A DNA stretch of 64,000 nt, from assembly GCA_001429255.1 (NCBI GenBank), contig LMJI01000001.1, forward strand, positions 2,645,879 through 2,709,878, given 5' to 3'. Under the pieces are notes generated by a model. That model ran no database searches. It was given only the letters and a program-made list of their open reading frames with translations, and was not told where the DNA came from. The stretch comes from Cellulomonas sp. Root930 (GTDB lineage Bacteria > Actinomycetota > Actinomycetes > Actinomycetales > Cellulomonadaceae). Below, one piece after another: positions 57,187-64,000 of this stretch. Position 1 is the stretch's first letter. Each line of letters begins with the position of its first letter. The translations under genes and the position numbers were made by a program.

Positions 57187-59169
57187 TCAGCGGCGCACGG
57201 TGACCACCCGCTCGGCCGTCGACGTGCTGCCTGCCGCGTTGCTGAGCACGGCGACGAACGCGTAGGAGCCGGGGGCGAGCCCGGTCACGGCGGTGCGGGC
57301 GGTCTGTCGCTGCGGCGAGGCTGCCGTGAGCGACTGCTCGTCGACGAGGACCCCGTCGCGGTAGAGCGCGTAGTGCGTCGCGTTGGTGCCCCACCACAGG
57401 GTGCTGGTGACGGCGAACGACCCGTCGCCGTCGCGGTTGTCGTCGCTCAGGACCGCGCGACCCGGGGCCGCGTCGGTGACGACGACCGTGCGCGGGCGCG
57501 ACGTGCTCGTCCCGTACGGGTTGAGCAGCTCGACCACGTAGGTGTAGCTCCCGTCGACCTTGCCGGTGACCGGGAAGGCGACGGTCTGCCGGTGCGGGGT
57601 CGTCCCGGTGAGCCACTGGGCGCCCACGAGCACCCCGTTCTCGTAGAGCCGGGCGACGGTGGCGTTCTGGCCCCACCACAGGGTGGCCGTCACGGTGTAG
57701 GAGCCGTCGTGCAGGCCGGTGTCCCAGCCGTTGTCGTCGGAGAGCACGGCGACGCCCGGCGTCGCGGTGGCCACGGGTGTGCCGGAGGCGAGCACCCCGG
57801 CGCCGGCCCCGGCGCGCACGATCCCGGGCACGTCCTGCACCGGGTCGAGCGCGTAGTCGTACACGTCGGCCGGGCTCCACCGGGCCGTCGGGGCGAGCGG
57901 CACGGGTGCCGTGGCGTTGAACGCCGCGACGAGGTCGGTCACCTGCCCGTTCACGGTGGAGCCGGTCTCGAGCAGCTGCGTCCCGCCCCACCGGGTGATG
58001 ATCCGTGCGGGGTCCACGCCGGGCGCCAGCTCGAACGCGTTGTTCTCCGCGACGATGCTCGACTCGATGCCGGCGCCCCAGTAGTACTGGAACAGCCCCT
58101 CGGTCGTCTGCGTGTAGAGGTTGTCGTAGAGGTGCACGTCGCCGAATCGCACGCGCGGTGCGCGCTGGCCGATGTCGATCCAGTGGTTGTGGTGGAGCGT
58201 GACCCGGTGCTGGCCACGGTCCTGGAGCCGGGAGTCCGACGACCCGATGAGCTCGGTCTTGTCGTGGTCGTCGAGCCGGTTCCAGGAGACCGTCACCAGG
58301 TCGGACCCGTGCGTGATGTCGAGCAGCCCGTCGTGCACCTCGAACGGCCGGCCGTAGACGGTCGGCAGCGCGCTGTGCGGGTGGTCGCCGTCGTCGAACG
58401 TGTTGTGGTCCACCCAGACGCTCGTCGAGGTCCACACCGACACGTTGTCGTAGGCGGAGTTCCAGTTGCCGACAGCCGTGTCCGTGGGGTCCCAGACCGG
58501 GAAGCAGTCGTAGGCGTCGGCGAGGGTGAGGTTCCGCACGATGACGTTGTGCGCGTCGCGGATCCGCATGCTCGCGCCCACGATCTTCGCGTCCGTGCCG
58601 ACGCCGACCAGGGTGACGTTCGACCCGACGTGCTGGAGCGTCGCTGCGGCCTGGACGGCGGCTGCGGCGATGCGCGCGTCCTCGAGCGGCCCGCTGGGCT
58701 TCGCGCGTCCCCACGGGCCGGTGGGGTCGAAGTGGGCGACGTAGTCGGCCATCCGGAACGGCCGGCCGGTGTCCGACACGGTCACCTGCGCGGCGAAGCC
58801 GTCGCACGTGGCGGGGTCGAAGGCGGTGATCGTCCCGGTGACGTAGACGATGCGCGGGACGACGTTGCGGCGGGCGTCGGTCTGGCTGCCGCCGGGCTTG
58901 CCGGCGAGGGCGTCGCGCAGCTCCTGCCAGGTGTCGACGACGTAGACCTCCGACGGGGAGGCGTCGGCCCCGCCCGTGGTCCCGGTGGCCACGGCCGGCT
59001 TGCCGTCGGGCACAGTCGGTCCCTCGTAGGAGGCCCAGCCGTCCCCGGGCGGGAGGACGTCGCGGCCGAGGTCGACGGCGGGTGGCGGGGGAGCGGCGTG
59101 AGCGGTCGTCGGCGGGAGGAGGAGCGCTCCTGCGGCGAGGGTGACGACGAGGGTACGACGAGCTCTCAT
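57187..59169 (-). CDS. secreted pectate lyase (polysaccharide lyase family 1)
   Basis: The 660-residue protein has a Sec signal peptide (about 1-25, cleavage after AHA). A PL1 right-handed beta-helix (about 30-420) carries catalytic motifs VWVDHNTFDDGDH, DITHGSDLVTVSWNRLDDHDK and VTLHHNHWIDIGQRAPRVRFG. Two C-terminal repeats (about 455-560 and 570-655) resemble carbohydrate-binding or Fn3-like modules with GSYTVTATLWWGQNATVARLYENG. It degrades pectin. A LacI-type operator lies upstream. Confidence 0.93.
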   Translation of the reverse strand: MRARRTLVVTLAAGALLLPPTTAHAAPPPPAVDLGRDVLPPGDGWASYEGPTVPDGKPAVATGTTGGADASPSEVYVVDTWQELRDALAGKPGGSQTDARRNVVPRIVYVTGTITAFDPATCDGFAAQVTVSDTGRPFRMADYVAHFDPTGPWGRAKPSGPLEDARIAAAAVQAAATLQHVGSNVTLVGVGTDAKIVGASMRIRDAHNVIVRNLTLADAYDCFPVWDPTDTAVGNWNSAYDNVSVWTSTSVWVDHNTFDDGDHPHSALPTVYGRPFEVHDGLLDITHGSDLVTVSWNRLDDHDKTELIGSSDSRLQDRGQHRVTLHHNHWIDIGQRAPRVRFGDVHLYDNLYTQTTEGLFQYYWGAGIESSIVAENNAFELAPGVDPARIITRWGGTQLLETGSTVNGQVTDLVAAFNATAPVPLAPTARWSPADVYDYALDPVQDVPGIVRAGAGAGVLASGTPVATATPGVAVLSDDNGWDTGLHDGSYTVTATLWWGQNATVARLYENGVLVGAQWLTGTTPHRQTVAFPVTGKVDGSYTYVVELLNPYGTSTSRPRTVVVTDAAPGRAVLSDDNRDGDGSFAVTSTLWWGTNATHYALYRDGVLVDEQSLTAASPQRQTARTAVTGLAPGSYAFVAVLSNAAGSTSTAERVVTVRR

Positions 59170-59828: not shown

Positions 59829-60050
59829 TCAGCCGAGGAGGCCGAGCGCGCGCCCGACGATCGCGGCCATCGCCAGACCCGCGAGGGTCCAGCCGATGAT
59901 GCTGCCCGCGAGGTAGGCCGCGTACCGCGCGTGCTCGCGCGTCGAGCTGCCCCACAGGGGCGCGGGCGCCCACCGGATCGTGGTGCCCAGCTGCCGCAGA
60001 CGCTGGTCGATCGTGGCGGCGGGGTGGACTGCGGGACGGATGGCGGACAT
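59829..60050 (-). CDS. small membrane protein
   Basis: The 73-residue protein has an N-terminal soluble segment (MSAIRPAVHPAATIDQRLRQLG) and one or two C-terminal membrane helices (YAAYLAGSIIGWTLAGLAMAAIVG). No family is recognised. AAGGAG lies 6-7 nt before the ATG at 60050, which supports translation. It is convergent with the NUDIX gene. Confidence 0.65.
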   Translation of the reverse strand: MSAIRPAVHPAATIDQRLRQLGTTIRWAPAPLWGSSTREHARYAAYLAGSIIGWTLAGLAMAAIVGRALGLLG

Positions 60051-60178: not shown

Positions 60179-60778
60179 TCACGCAGGTCCGGTCCCGCCG
60201 CCCCCGGGGATCGTCGCCAGGTAGGACCGGATGCGTCCGGGATCCCAGCCGTGGCCCTGCCGGAGCCCGGCGGCCATGGTGGACAGGTACGCCGCGCTCG
60301 GGCGGTTCAGGGGCGCCTCGTCGCACCGCTGGGTCGTGAGCGTCAGGAGCGGGATCCCGGCGAGGCTCCCGAGACGGACGACCGTCTCGTAGCGACCAGG
60401 TCCCAGCCGCAGGTGTCCGGCACGGGCCAGCTCAGGAAGGTCGAGATCGGTGCCCGGTTCCCGCCTCATCTCCTGGGCGAGCACGTCGGCCAGCTGCCCC
60501 GGTCGGATCAGGTAGGCCATCGCGGGGACCCGTCCCGGCCCCGACGGATCGAGGACCGCGGTGCCGCCGCCCCAGGTCGACGAGGAGCCGGTGAAGTACA
60601 GGCGCCCGGGGATCACGAGAGCCGCGATGCGTTCAGGGTCCCGACGGTCCCGGCACCCGGGGTAGGTGCGACGGCTGCCCGGCGGGCGACCACCCCGCAG
60701 GTAGTGACGGAATCGGCTGGCGCTCAGGTTCGAGCCGTACGCGACGTACCAGAGCCGTTCGACGGGTACCGACGTCAT
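60179..60778 (-). CDS. gamma-glutamylcyclotransferase-like (AIG2/GGCT) protein
   Basis: The 199-residue protein begins with LWYVAYGSNLSASRFRHYLRGG, the YGSN motif of GGCT/AIG2 proteins, and keeps GGGTAVLDPS and a central Glu region. Enzymes of this fold cyclise gamma-glutamyl groups to 5-oxoproline. It overlaps the ATP-grasp gene by 4 bp (ATGA), so the ligase and a possible gamma-glutamyl-removing enzyme are co-translated. Substrate unknown. Confidence 0.85.
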   Translation of the reverse strand: MTSVPVERLWYVAYGSNLSASRFRHYLRGGRPPGSRRTYPGCRDRRDPERIAALVIPGRLYFTGSSSTWGGGTAVLDPSGPGRVPAMAYLIRPGQLADVLAQEMRREPGTDLDLPELARAGHLRLGPGRYETVVRLGSLAGIPLLTLTTQRCDEAPLNRPSAAYLSTMAAGLRQGHGWDPGRIRSYLATIPGGGGTGPA

Positions 60779-62313
60779 CCCGGGAGCTCCGGTGCGCGAG
60801 CGGCGGCCGCCGCCTCGTCCATCAGGACGTCCTCGGCGCGCCGGTAGAGGTCCATCGCCTCGTCCGCCGTGTTCCCGACCGCGGTCAGGCCGACGCGGCC
60901 CAGCTCGGTCAAGCAGCTGATCATGTGGAACACCACGCCCGACTCGCGCGACTGGTCGAAGTGCAACCCGTGCCGGGCGACGATGTCGAAGAGGTCGCCG
61001 ACCCGCAAGCCGCGCAGTGCCGGGCTCTCGAGGTGGTCCGTGGCGACGAGGTGCTTCTCGACGCCGTCCGACGTGAGGAAGCGCCCCGACGGTCCGTCGT
61101 AGCGACCGTCGGTGAGGAACTGCAGGGTCAGGAAGGGATGCGTCGTCCCGCCCTTGCGCAGGTTCAACTCGATCGCGTGCGCCTCCCACGATCCGGCGTC
61201 GTCCCGCACGACGACGAAGTCGACGGCGAAACGGCCGAGGACCCCCTCGGCGGCCAGCCGCCGGCCGATGACCTCGGCCGGCTCACTGATCAGTCGCGAG
61301 TAGGCGGGGTCCGCCGGGAACGTGCAGCCGATGTAGCGCTGGCCACTGGGACCGCCGAGCAGCTGGTCGTGGGTGGACAGGAGCTCGACGCGCCCGTCGG
61401 GCAGGACCCGGAGCTGCACGCTCGGGCTGCGCAGCGCGGTTCCCGTGACGCGTTCCTCGACGATGCCGCCGTCGCGGGCGAAGCGGTCCCAGTACTCGTC
61501 CCTCGTGAGGGTCGGCGACTCGAGCTCGAGCTCGGACACACGCGCGGTGACGAGCTCTCGACGTCCCACGCCGACACCACGCAGGTCGACCGTGGCATTG
61601 CCGTTGCCGGCCACCCCGTCGTTCAGCTTGACGATCATCGACTCCGTGCCCGGGCGCCGGGCCAGCACCGACGTGATGGCGTCGACGACCGCCTCCTGGT
61701 CGCGGAGCCCCTCGGCGCCGAGCGGGTGCCGGACGCCCTCCTCGGCGAAGAGCCGACGGCATCCGGACTTGGTGCCGAGATCGGACAACCGGGGGTCCGA
61801 GCCGTACATCGGGATGCCGAGGGTCAGGGCGAGGTCCCGCTCGCGGTCCGTCGTGCTGTAGGCGATCAGGTGGCAGCGGTCGCGGTTGGGGATGCCCGCG
61901 CCGATCGTCGAGATCAGCCTCGGCCGGTCGAGGAGCTTCTCGCTGAGCGGCCGCAGCGTCGAGTCGTCGACCGACACGAGCGTGAGGCGGGCGCGCGCGT
62001 GACTCGGGATCACCCCCGGCAGGAGCGCGAGGTAGTACTCGATGATGCCGTCCTTGATCGGCGTCGACGTCACGTAGGTCATCCGCAGCGCGGGCTGGCG
62101 CAGGAGGAGCAGGAGGAAGAGGAACCGTTCCTCGAAGGCCTGGACGAGTCCCGCGCTGGCCACCAGGGGGTCCACCGCCACCGAGGGGACGATCACGACC
62201 GACTCGTCGTCGTGGTCGTGGCGCATCACGTCCCAGACCGCCCTCATCCGCTGCTGGAGCGCCGCGAACCGCTCCCAGCGGGCCGCCGAGTCGAGCTCGT
62301 CCAGCGTGGTCAC
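60775..62313 (-). CDS. PGM1-like ATP-grasp ligase
   Basis: The 512-residue protein has a pre-ATP-grasp region (about 30-165), an ATP-grasp core (about 175-400, with MIVKLNDGVAGNGN, VEERVTG and AIELNLRKGGTTHPFLTL) and a C-terminal domain (about 410-500) like that of PGM1, the pheganomycin peptide ligase. It should form amide bonds between a carboxylate and an amine. The GTG at 62313 overlaps the cyclase stop (GTGA). Its position between signalling genes and GGCT is unusual. Confidence 0.85.
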   Translation of the reverse strand: MTTLDELDSAARWERFAALQQRMRAVWDVMRHDHDDESVVIVPSVAVDPLVASAGLVQAFEERFLFLLLLLRQPALRMTYVTSTPIKDGIIEYYLALLPGVIPSHARARLTLVSVDDSTLRPLSEKLLDRPRLISTIGAGIPNRDRCHLIAYSTTDRERDLALTLGIPMYGSDPRLSDLGTKSGCRRLFAEEGVRHPLGAEGLRDQEAVVDAITSVLARRPGTESMIVKLNDGVAGNGNATVDLRGVGVGRRELVTARVSELELESPTLTRDEYWDRFARDGGIVEERVTGTALRSPSVQLRVLPDGRVELLSTHDQLLGGPSGQRYIGCTFPADPAYSRLISEPAEVIGRRLAAEGVLGRFAVDFVVVRDDAGSWEAHAIELNLRKGGTTHPFLTLQFLTDGRYDGPSGRFLTSDGVEKHLVATDHLESPALRGLRVGDLFDIVARHGLHFDQSRESGVVFHMISCLTELGRVGLTAVGNTADEAMDLYRRAEDVLMDEAAAAARAPELPG

Positions 62314-63437
62314 GACTGACTCACCCCGGCACTCTCGATGACGTAGGTGCTCACCGGTCGGCTGAAACCGCGCAGCTCGAGGGCGCCGACCGGCTGCCCC
62401 GCGGCGCGCTCCTCGACGGCTGCGAACACGCGTTCGCTCACCAGGACCTGCCCAGCGCCCGCTGCGGCGCAGAGCCGCGCGGCGAGGTTGGTCACGCTGC
62501 CGATCGCGGCGTAGTCGGAGCGACCCTCGAAGCCGATCCGCCCCAGCGTGGCGAATCCCTGCGCGACGCCGACGCCGAAGCCGAGCTCGTGCCCGCGGCG
62601 CGCCCAGCCCTGCGCGAGCCGGGCCACCCGGTCACGCATCGCCATCGCCATCGCGACAGCGCGCCATGCCGGGTCGTCGCACGGGATCGGGTCGTTGAAG
62701 AAGACCATGAGTCCGTCCCCGGTGAAGCGCTCGAGCGTCCCCTCGAACTCGACGATCAGCTCTCCGAGCTCCCGGTGGTACTCGTTCAGGACCCACATCA
62801 CCTCCTCCGGCTCGGACCGCTCGGCGAACGGCGTGAACCCGCGCAGGTCGCAGAACACGACGACGATCTCGCGGCGGTGGCTGTCGAGGAGGGACTCGTC
62901 CCCGGAGTCGAGCACGAGGTCCGCGAGCTGAGGCGGCAGGAACCGTCTGAGCCTCTGGAGGCGCTGCAGCTCGTCCACCTGCGTGCGGACGCGCGACTCG
63001 AGCTCCCGGTTCCACTCCGCGAGCTCCGCGGCCTGCCGGGCGATGGTGTCCTGGTAGCGCTTCACCCGCGCCAGCGACGCCACCCGCGCGACGAGCTCGC
63101 CGTGGTGGAAGGGCTTCGCGACGAAGTCGTCCGCCCCGGCCTCGATGGCGTGGAGCTTCTCCTGATCGCCGCTCGCGGTGATCATCACCACGGGAAGGTA
63201 CGCGGTGCGCGGGTCGGCCCTGAGCCGGCGGCAGACCTCGTACCCGTCGATCCCGGCCATCACGATGTCGAGGAGCACGAGGTCGACCGTCTGGTCGGGT
63301 CGGGCCAGGAAGGCCAGCGCCTCCTCACCGGACGTCGCGAGCTCGAGCCGGTAGCCGCGCGGCTCGAGGACGGCCTGGAGCAGCCGCAGGTTCTGCGGCA
63401 GGTCGTCGACGGCGAGGATCGTCACCTGGTCAGGCAT
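62310..63437 (-). CDS. response regulator with class III nucleotidyl cyclase domain
   Basis: The 375-residue protein has an N-terminal receiver domain with phospho-acceptor D57 and K108. A coiled-coil linker (about 125-165) follows, then a class III cyclase domain with metal-binding D197 (FCDLRGFT) and D241 (FTGDGLMVFFND), D308 (SDYAAIG), N317 and R321. The Lys that usually contacts adenine is R237, and the selectivity pair favours ATP through D308. It likely makes cAMP on phosphorylation. It overlaps the upstream receiver gene by 8 bp. Confidence 0.92.
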   Translation of the reverse strand: MPDQVTILAVDDLPQNLRLLQAVLEPRGYRLELATSGEEALAFLARPDQTVDLVLLDIVMAGIDGYEVCRRLRADPRTAYLPVVMITASGDQEKLHAIEAGADDFVAKPFHHGELVARVASLARVKRYQDTIARQAAELAEWNRELESRVRTQVDELQRLQRLRRFLPPQLADLVLDSGDESLLDSHRREIVVVFCDLRGFTPFAERSEPEEVMWVLNEYHRELGELIVEFEGTLERFTGDGLMVFFNDPIPCDDPAWRAVAMAMAMRDRVARLAQGWARRGHELGFGVGVAQGFATLGRIGFEGRSDYAAIGSVTNLAARLCAAAGAGQVLVSERVFAAVEERAAGQPVGALELRGFSRPVSTYVIESAGVSQS

Positions 63438-63816
63438 GGGGGTGACCGCGGACCAGGAACGCGTCGACCTGGAACGGGAGCGCCCGCACGCTGATCGGCT
63501 TGGACAGGTAGCCGTCGAAGCCGTCCGCGTACGCGCGCTCGCGGTCCTCCTCCATGGCGAAGGCGGTGACGGCGACCACCGGCACGTCGCCGACGGCAGG
63601 GTCCTGGCGGATCCGGTGCAGCGCCTCGACCCCGTCGATGCCGGGGAGCTGGAGGTCCATCAGGACGAGGTCGGGGGAGCAGTCGTGCGCGAGGTCCACC
63701 CCTTCCTCGCCCGACCGTGCCTCGACGACGTCGTAGCCGCCCACCTGGAGCACGTCACGGATCAGCTTGAGGTTGAGCGCGTTGTCCTCGACCACGAGGA
63801 TCCGGCCACCGGTCAT
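63430..63816 (-). CDS. single-domain response regulator
   Basis: The 128-residue protein is one receiver domain: acidic pair E10-D11, phospho-acceptor D54 in LVLMDLQLPGIDG and K106-type Lys in YLSKPIS. Lacking an output domain, it may relay phosphate like DivK or Spo0F. Its ATG overlaps the stop of the partial upstream receiver protein (ATGA), placing it second in the operon. Confidence 0.93.
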   Translation of the reverse strand: MTGGRILVVEDNALNLKLIRDVLQVGGYDVVEARSGEEGVDLAHDCSPDLVLMDLQLPGIDGVEALHRIRQDPAVGDVPVVAVTAFAMEEDRERAYADGFDGYLSKPISVRALPFQVDAFLVRGHPHA

Positions 63817-64000
63817 CGTCTCGCTCCGTCCCTCGGCGCGGCCTCGGCGTCGGCCGGCAGAGCGTCGGCGCGTCGCAGCGCGTTCACCAGCTCGTCGCGG
63901 CCGACCGGCTTGACCAGGTACTCCGAGGCGCCCAGCGCGAGGCCGCGCGGGCGTTCGTCGAAGATCGAGGCGACGACGACGGGGATGTCCCGCGTCGTGG
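63813..64000 (-). CDS. receiver-domain protein, C-terminal part only
   Basis: The last 61 codons of a gene that runs off the right edge read as the end of a receiver domain: RDIPVVVASIFDERPRGLALGASEYLVKPVGRDELVNALRR, including the conserved Lys in YLVKPVG. A short disordered tail follows. Because the next two genes are also receivers, this may be the end of a hybrid histidine kinase that starts the phosphorelay, but only the receiver part is visible. Confidence 0.85.
   Translation of the reverse strand, partial: TTRDIPVVVASIFDERPRGLALGASEYLVKPVGRDELVNALRRADALPADAEAAPRDGARR

Follow-up and report, generated by a model that had tools for sequence, protein, structure and literature searches.

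The operon in the window

What would an amino-acid ligase do in an operon that also encodes a sensor kinase and a nucleotidyl cyclase? This question is raised by positions 60179-64000 of a 64,000-nucleotide stretch of Cellulomonas sp. Root930 (assembly GCA_001429255.1, contig LMJI01000001.1, positions 2,645,879 to 2,709,878 of the forward strand), which is referred to here as the window. The core set consists of a hybrid kinase, a single receiver, a receiver fused to a class III nucleotidyl cyclase (receiver-cyclase), and an ATP-grasp ligase of the BesA/PGM1 type. This four-gene order, all on one strand, was found in 12 distinct genomes of four families, the window's included. The module is a real, conserved combination of known parts that is undescribed in the literature searched, and its function we infer below. 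In our judgment, the chances are about even that it is a signal-switched cyclic-nucleotide operon with the amino-acid ligase as its enzymatic output.

Five minus-strand reading frames were confirmed at the locus and are given here with their Pfam scores.

63813..64000, minus strand: 3' end of the hybrid histidine kinase; the gene lies mostly beyond the window (L004:9692-11950, equivalent to window 63813-66071; 752 amino acids, aa)
63430..63816, minus strand: single-domain receiver, 128 aa (PF00072, 96.2 bits)
62310..63437, minus strand: receiver and class III nucleotidyl cyclase fusion, 375 aa (PF00072, 93 bits; PF00211, 63.7 bits)
60775..62313, minus strand: BesA/PGM1-type ATP-grasp ligase, 512 aa, GTG start (PF24923, 74.7 bits; PF18105, 45.8 bits)
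60179..60778, minus strand: GGCT-like protein, 199 aa, no Pfam family, an accessory gene

The overlaps are 4 base pairs (bp) between kinase and receiver (63813-63816), 8 bp between receiver and receiver-cyclase (63430-63437), 4 bp between receiver-cyclase and ligase (62310-62313), and 4 bp between ligase and GGCT-like gene (60775-60778), which bears out a first-pass annotation of five minus-strand genes overlapping by 4-8 bp. The annotation had also listed a cut-off "partial receiver protein". When the sequence was extended to the right of the window, this proved to be the end of the complete 752-aa hybrid histidine kinase. The central idea of the annotation, that the locus forms one unit, stands without its GGCT arm: the phosphorelay, class III cyclase, and amide-bond ligase are joined, and the description of the signaling as "cAMP-type" (cAMP, cyclic AMP) is not assured.

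Distribution of the module

Relatives of the ligase were found in 6 of 200 genomes of the window's family (E <= 1e-10), 14 of 396 of its order (E <= 1e-30), and 51 of 396 of its phylum (E <= 1e-15). The ligase surroundings were read in all 6 family genomes, all 14 order genomes, and 40 of the 51 phylum genomes (G318, G374, G447, G463, G479, G499, G517, G562, G570, G578, and G586 were left unread), and the module was present in 3, 9, and 3 of these, respectively. The searches scored only three or four first-look candidates per genome and, thus, absences are not certain. Some loci lie on short contigs (e.g., L050, L054, and L056, with almost nothing upstream in L082), where a missing neighbor is weak evidence. 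Genes outside the window were called by a codon-score method trained on ligase genes, and some starts were mis-set, as in the 1058-aa kinase of L107 and the 594-aa ligase of L113.

The module carriers are the window's own genome (G000), G180, and G189, which form the Cellulomonas group in family f1; G284, G737, G857, G866, G874, G890, and G945 in f4; G608 in f90; and G212 in f21, which is joined to the window only by phylum. G180 and G189 share the genus of the window's genome and have ligases with 89% identity to that of the window. Module junctions overlap by 4-17 bp, except for the last junction in G857, G890, and G945, which is a gap of 35-131 bp with uncertain start codons. A receiver-cyclase at E <= 1e-60 was found in 9 of 396 order genomes, and the ligase adjoins it in all nine. 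Receiver-cyclase matches in the phylum (E <= 1e-40) came from 12 of 316 genomes, three of them module carriers. The first-pass annotation had proposed conservation of the neighbors as a test and, when this was run across the sampled genomes, the core four were conserved together and the GGCT-like gene was not.

A tree of the ligases (61 of 61 rows) placed the 12 module ligases and one solo ligase, from G882, on one side of a branch with 99% support in the Shimodaira-Hasegawa-like approximate likelihood ratio test. The module label changes twice on this tree, compared to a mean of 11.2 changes when it was shuffled over the 61 rows, and therefore one gain and one loss suffice. The tree was made by a quick method, and three long rows (L017, L049, and L064) were flagged. 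Among ligases outside the clade with surroundings read, none had the kinase-receiver-cyclase cassette beside it, and the cassette was likewise not beside the ligase in 37 of the 40 phylum genomes read. At seven lone-ligase loci (L053, L059, L068, L074, L085, L086, and L089), an isolated match to a kinase or receiver lies at another place in the stretch, and L073 has a weak Crp-like match, with no cassette formed at any of them.

Cassettes without a ligase were also seen. In G283 and G305, a kinase, a receiver, and a receiver-cyclase (54% identical) adjoin on one strand without a ligase in the fetched stretch. Kinase-linked receiver-cyclases without a ligase occur on short contigs in G486, G466, and G412 (38-40% identical), while G236, G316, G444, and G216 match over the cyclase part alone (the surroundings of G236 and G316 were unread). 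Since such ligase-free cassettes exist, the signaling cassette is probably the older part and gained the ligase later, and G882 is probably a natural loss of the cassette. A gene near the G882 ligase, presumably release-factor-like, is also found in L111.

Another possible explanation is that a general ligase was captured behind the signaling cassette and is co-transcribed but unrelated to it, with only the promoter in common. The many ligase relatives in the phylum, most of them without an adjoining cassette, are compatible with such a capture, as are the cassettes that have no ligase and G882, which keeps the ligase alone. However, the module ligases belong to one clade, in which 12 of 13 members have the cassette across families and genomic settings, and the receiver-cyclase at E <= 1e-60 was never without the ligase in the 396 order genomes. 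We consider an unrelated ligase of this kind quite unlikely.

Domains and catalytic residues

The window ligase scored above the curated cut-offs for PGM1_C (PF18105, 45.8 compared to 22.5 bits) and ATP-grasp_IQCH (PF24923, 74.7 compared to 27 bits). K229, E286, D365, E382, N384, and R386 are the same in all 13 clade ligases and in every one of the 48 ligases aligned from outside it. We take K229, E286, E382, N384, and R386 to be the catalytic Lys, the Glu, the Mg-binding Glu and Asn, and the Arg of ATP-grasp enzymes. Because these residues are invariant, the ligase is very probably active. Its nearest solved relative is BesA (PDB 8yi6, E = 5.3e-31, residues 54-498), a glutamyl ligase, which favors the earlier prediction of an amide-bond ligase; the structure model was poor (predicted local distance difference test, pLDDT, 51; shallow alignment), and its Foldseek matches to 3wvq and 3wvr are used here only as being in agreement with the sequence match. 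These two entries, titled 'Structure of ATP grasp protein', we take to be PGM1. An equivalog of BesA was ruled out, as the ligase reached 129.5 bits with NCBIfam NF042917, for which the curated cut-off is 750. By analogy with BesA, our guess for the substrate would be glutamate.

The receiver-cyclase carries the marks of a class III nucleotidyl cyclase, as PF00211 scored 63.7 bits compared to a cut-off of 21.9 bits, and the two metal aspartates and the Asn and Arg aligned. All 12 module cyclases retain D197 and D241, the metal aspartates. The first-pass annotation had called D57, D197, D241, and D308 intact; all four are present, but D308 is not the base-specificity residue. The residues that we take to set base specificity, at positions 237 and 310, are Arg and Ala in the window cyclase compared to Lys and Thr in solved adenylyl cyclases. 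Adenylyl cyclases read the base with Lys and Asp/Thr. Among the 12 module cyclases, the Lys position (GTIDKF and GTVDKF in CyaB and CyaC) is Arg in five and His in seven, and the Thr position is Ala in all except G212, which has Thr. The nucleotide is not predictable because the base-reading lysine is Arg or His; it may be cAMP or a different cyclic nucleotide. The "cAMP-type" label is not assured, since the base-reading pair departs from that of known adenylyl cyclases. If the phosphorelay-driven cyclase made a nucleotide other than or besides cAMP, and a small amide from the ligase, itself made from the same transcript, was the cue or the output, the module might be a self-contained chemical circuit, which we think rather unlikely.

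The window kinase is built as GAF-GAF-HisKA-HATPase-REC and contains the H-box FLASMSHELRTPL and GTGLGL. HisKA, HATPase, and a C-terminal receiver, which define a hybrid histidine kinase, were found in it and in three further module kinases scanned, and the H-box is present in all 12. The architecture varies, with two receivers in G284 (the sole f4 kinase scanned) and one GAF domain in G212 (scanned with the start as called here). Most module genomes have a different called gene upstream of the kinase; one such gene is common to only two Cellulomonas relatives and lies one position further out in the window's genome.

The cue for the kinase GAF domains could be a product of the ligase, a small amide or dipeptide, so that the module would be both maker and reader of its own feedback signal. 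Small molecules are known ligands of GAF domains, the distances of kinase and ligase are correlated (0.92 over the 12 modules), the ligase and a GAF kinase stay together in different genomic settings, and the one kinase scanned from the ligase-free cassettes of G283 and G305 is a HAMP kinase without GAF. However, GAF domains bind many things, the ligand and product are both hypothetical, and co-divergence is also expected from co-inheritance. We view such feedback as unlikely.

A Crp-type regulator next to the module

In 7 of the 12 module genomes, all seven in f4, the ligase is followed by a Crp-type gene. The three of these proteins that were scanned all have the cNMP_binding and HTH_Crp_2 domains of the Crp/Fnr family. 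In the window's genome, only one Crp-like gene was found at E <= 0.001; it is 32% identical and lies away from the module. In G212, the ligase is followed by a frame on the opposite strand, after which the contig ends. The gaps between ligase and Crp-type gene are located as follows.

L071:7976-8355, ligase-Crp gap
L106:9791-10166, ligase-Crp gap
L107:8083-8492, ligase-Crp gap
L108:9876-10311, ligase-Crp gap
L110:7844-8218, ligase-Crp gap
L111:9556-9942, ligase-Crp gap
L112:8182-8574, ligase-Crp gap

A small reading frame in these gaps has a conserved HHHP...W.W.C.CG.AS-like core. It had no convincing tblastn match in the three Cellulomonas-group loci, L070, L109, or L113 (best E = 0.016). A TGTGC-N6-NGACA-like site lies about 45-65 bases before the Crp-like start in 7 of 7 f4 loci. 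This is not claimed as a Crp site, since single-locus shuffles reached its score in 4 to 89 of 200 cases. A 10-mer shared before the Crp-like genes was also rejected as a regulatory motif because it falls inside the small opposite-strand frame.

A cyclase beside a cyclic-nucleotide-binding protein is also the plan of Pycsar anti-phage defense, in which the partner is an effector (membrane or TIR). Among the PADLOC models, those for PycC match the receiver-cyclase (best E = 2.4e-20), and PycTIR matches the Crp-like protein of L071 over the cyclic-nucleotide part of that protein. However, the PycC models presumably match class III cyclases in general, and the Crp-like proteins scanned carry the DNA-binding HTH_Crp_2 and no effector domain. 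The ligase and GGCT-like protein match no defense model, and there is no effector gene among the listed neighbors. Pycsar-like defense was rejected as highly improbable.

The GGCT-like gene

GGCT as a core partner, as first proposed, did not hold up. A relative was found in 14 of 200 family genomes (E <= 1e-5); it adjoins the ligase in 3 of these and lies at other places in 11. The gene adjoins the module only in G000, G180, and G189, in the same place behind the ligase, and was not seen beside the other nine modules (elsewhere in those nine genomes was not searched). In G048 and G123, the ligase and GGCT-like gene are on different contigs. Of the 14 GGCT-like sequences, 13 were aligned (L143 was left out for a stop inside the match), and all 13 retain YGSN and, within QEM, an invariant Glu. 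None of the 13 matches any Pfam family at E <= 10, the Pfam GGCT family included, and PF06094 and PF13772 gave no match in the window's genome. A profile search of the PDB found nothing. An hhalign comparison to three AIG2_2-matching proteins gave 86.6%, with very shallow alignments in which the catalytic Glu is not clearly placed. A structure model (three-sequence alignment, pLDDT 39.6) failed and was not used. The gene was added locally, and it probably belongs to the GGCT superfamily.

These data also bear on a gamma-glutamyl cycle, close to what the first-pass annotation had in mind, in which the ligase would add a gamma-glutamyl group and the GGCT-like protein would remove it. The nearest characterized ligase, BesA, is an L-propargylglycine-L-glutamate ligase, the GGCT-like gene overlaps the window ligase by 4 bp and has similarly placed relatives in G180 and G189, and the weak AIG2_2 profile match is in keeping with such a role. 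Yet the gene is absent beside nine of the 12 modules and lies elsewhere in most family genomes that have it, and the Pfam, PDB, and model results all speak against it. We consider the cycle unlikely.

Next to these genes, a 73-aa frame lies 3' of the GGCT-like gene (window 59829-60050), with a hydrophobic C-terminal half and no Pfam match; a frame at L014 1455-1685 resembles it. Further along, window 57187-59169 encodes a pectate lyase with a ChitinaseA_N-like part.

Proposed circuit

For the signal-switched operon proposed at the outset, the steps would be as follows. The GAF-domain hybrid histidine kinase would sense a cue, and phosphate would reach the receiver-cyclase via the receiver domains. 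Once phosphorylated, the cyclase would make a cyclic nucleotide, with both its activation and the identity of the nucleotide presumed. A Crp-type regulator would respond to this nucleotide; in seven genomes it would be the dedicated one beside the ligase, and in the window's genome probably the general Crp. Upon expression, the co-translated ligase would couple a small molecule or peptide to an amino acid, which, judging from homology, may be glutamate. We infer both the ligase substrate and the tie between ligase and messenger. The basis for the circuit is gene order, overlap, domain content, intact catalytic residues, conservation in a single clade, and matched divergence, the pairwise distances over the 12 modules giving a correlation of 0.97 for ligase and receiver-cyclase.

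Various observations weigh against this circuit. G882 (L113) keeps a ligase of the module clade with no kinase, receiver, or cyclase match near it, and is outside the nine order genomes that carry a close receiver-cyclase. Of three genomes in the G212 family, one has the module, whereas just a distant ligase is present in the remaining two. The matched divergence is also expected from shared descent alone. The scanned proteins of the operon showed no Hpt phosphotransfer domain, and the deviating Lys/Thr base pair suggests that the cyclase may not make cAMP or may be weak. The Crp-type gene is not beside the module in five of the 12 genomes (the three of the Cellulomonas group, G608, and G212), a gap with the small opposite-strand frame separates ligase and Crp-type gene in all seven f4 loci, and a Crp-site-like motif did not stand out before the kinase genes. 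The ligase product, phosphotransfer, and cyclase activity are all predictions from sequence.

Ligases in other settings

Most recurrent partners of the ligases outside the clade are confined to one family. Those shared between families are a translation-factor-like GTPase cluster, a glutamine synthetase cluster, and a small number of others. A gene that we take to be glutamine synthetase-like lies within five genes of the ligase in L004, L013, L014, L076, L077, and L078, upstream of the module in the Cellulomonas group and on the opposite strand in family f46. In f46 (L075, L076, and L077), the ligase faces an opposite-strand run of several frames, which by eye are presumably transglutaminase, proteasome-like, and alpha-E proteins. 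A plasmid search found a ligase relative (E <= 1e-10) in 6 of 72,556 records, none with at least 60% identity, and tblastn with our queries found no kinase or cyclase near the plasmid ligases in the three surroundings read. One of the plasmid ligases, 45% identical, is on a megaplasmid of Gemmatirosa (Gemmatimonadota; L193), with a receiver match about 2 kilobases off on the other strand. The ligase family therefore reaches beyond Actinomycetota.

Relation to known systems

The module ties second-messenger signaling to ATP-grasp peptide or amino-acid ligation, usually studied apart, in one conserved unit, and gives a regulatory context to one branch of a ligase family that is widespread in the phylum (51 of 396 genomes). 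Because there are cassettes with the ligase, cassettes without it, and one ligase without the cassette, the link is testable by gene removals and metabolite comparison. The first-pass annotation knew of no described system with this set, and we found none in the literature searched: no paper among the matches listed describes the four genes by title or abstract, although the ATP-grasp amidoligase survey of Iyer and others (2009) may mention related arrangements. Adenylate cyclases and other enzymes are reported near one graspetide branch in the available part of PMC8939145, and term searches of the available parts of PMC12123629 and PMC2447327 gave nothing relevant to the set.

With PGM1, the pheganomycin peptide ligase, the window ligase has in common a PGM1_C domain above the cut-off. 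PGM1 acts in pheganomycin biosynthesis, and the pheganomycin cluster and a related one are described in the part of PMC8939145 available to us; natural-product genes of this kind were not seen beside the window ligase. The GGCT-like protein resembles the AIG2_2/GGCT superfamily in its YGSN motif, QEM glutamate, and profile match, but is without a Pfam GGCT match and has an uncertain place for the catalytic Glu. The module cyclases share the catalytic domain, metal aspartates, Asn, and Arg with the class III adenylyl cyclases of the CyaB/CyaC type (3r5g and 1wc1), which have Lys and Thr where the module has Arg or His and Ala (Thr in one genome). Ligase-free cassettes of a hybrid or plain histidine kinase with a receiver-cyclase, as in G283 and G305, have the kinase-receiver-cyclase arrangement of the module, with HAMP in place of GAF in the one kinase scanned. 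The closest comparison is to BesA, an L-propargylglycine--L-glutamate ligase in the making of beta-ethynylserine. The two are homologous over nearly their whole length and have the Lys, the Glu, and the ExNxR stretch in common; the window ligase scores far below the BesA cut-off and, unlike BesA, sits in a sensor-cyclase operon.

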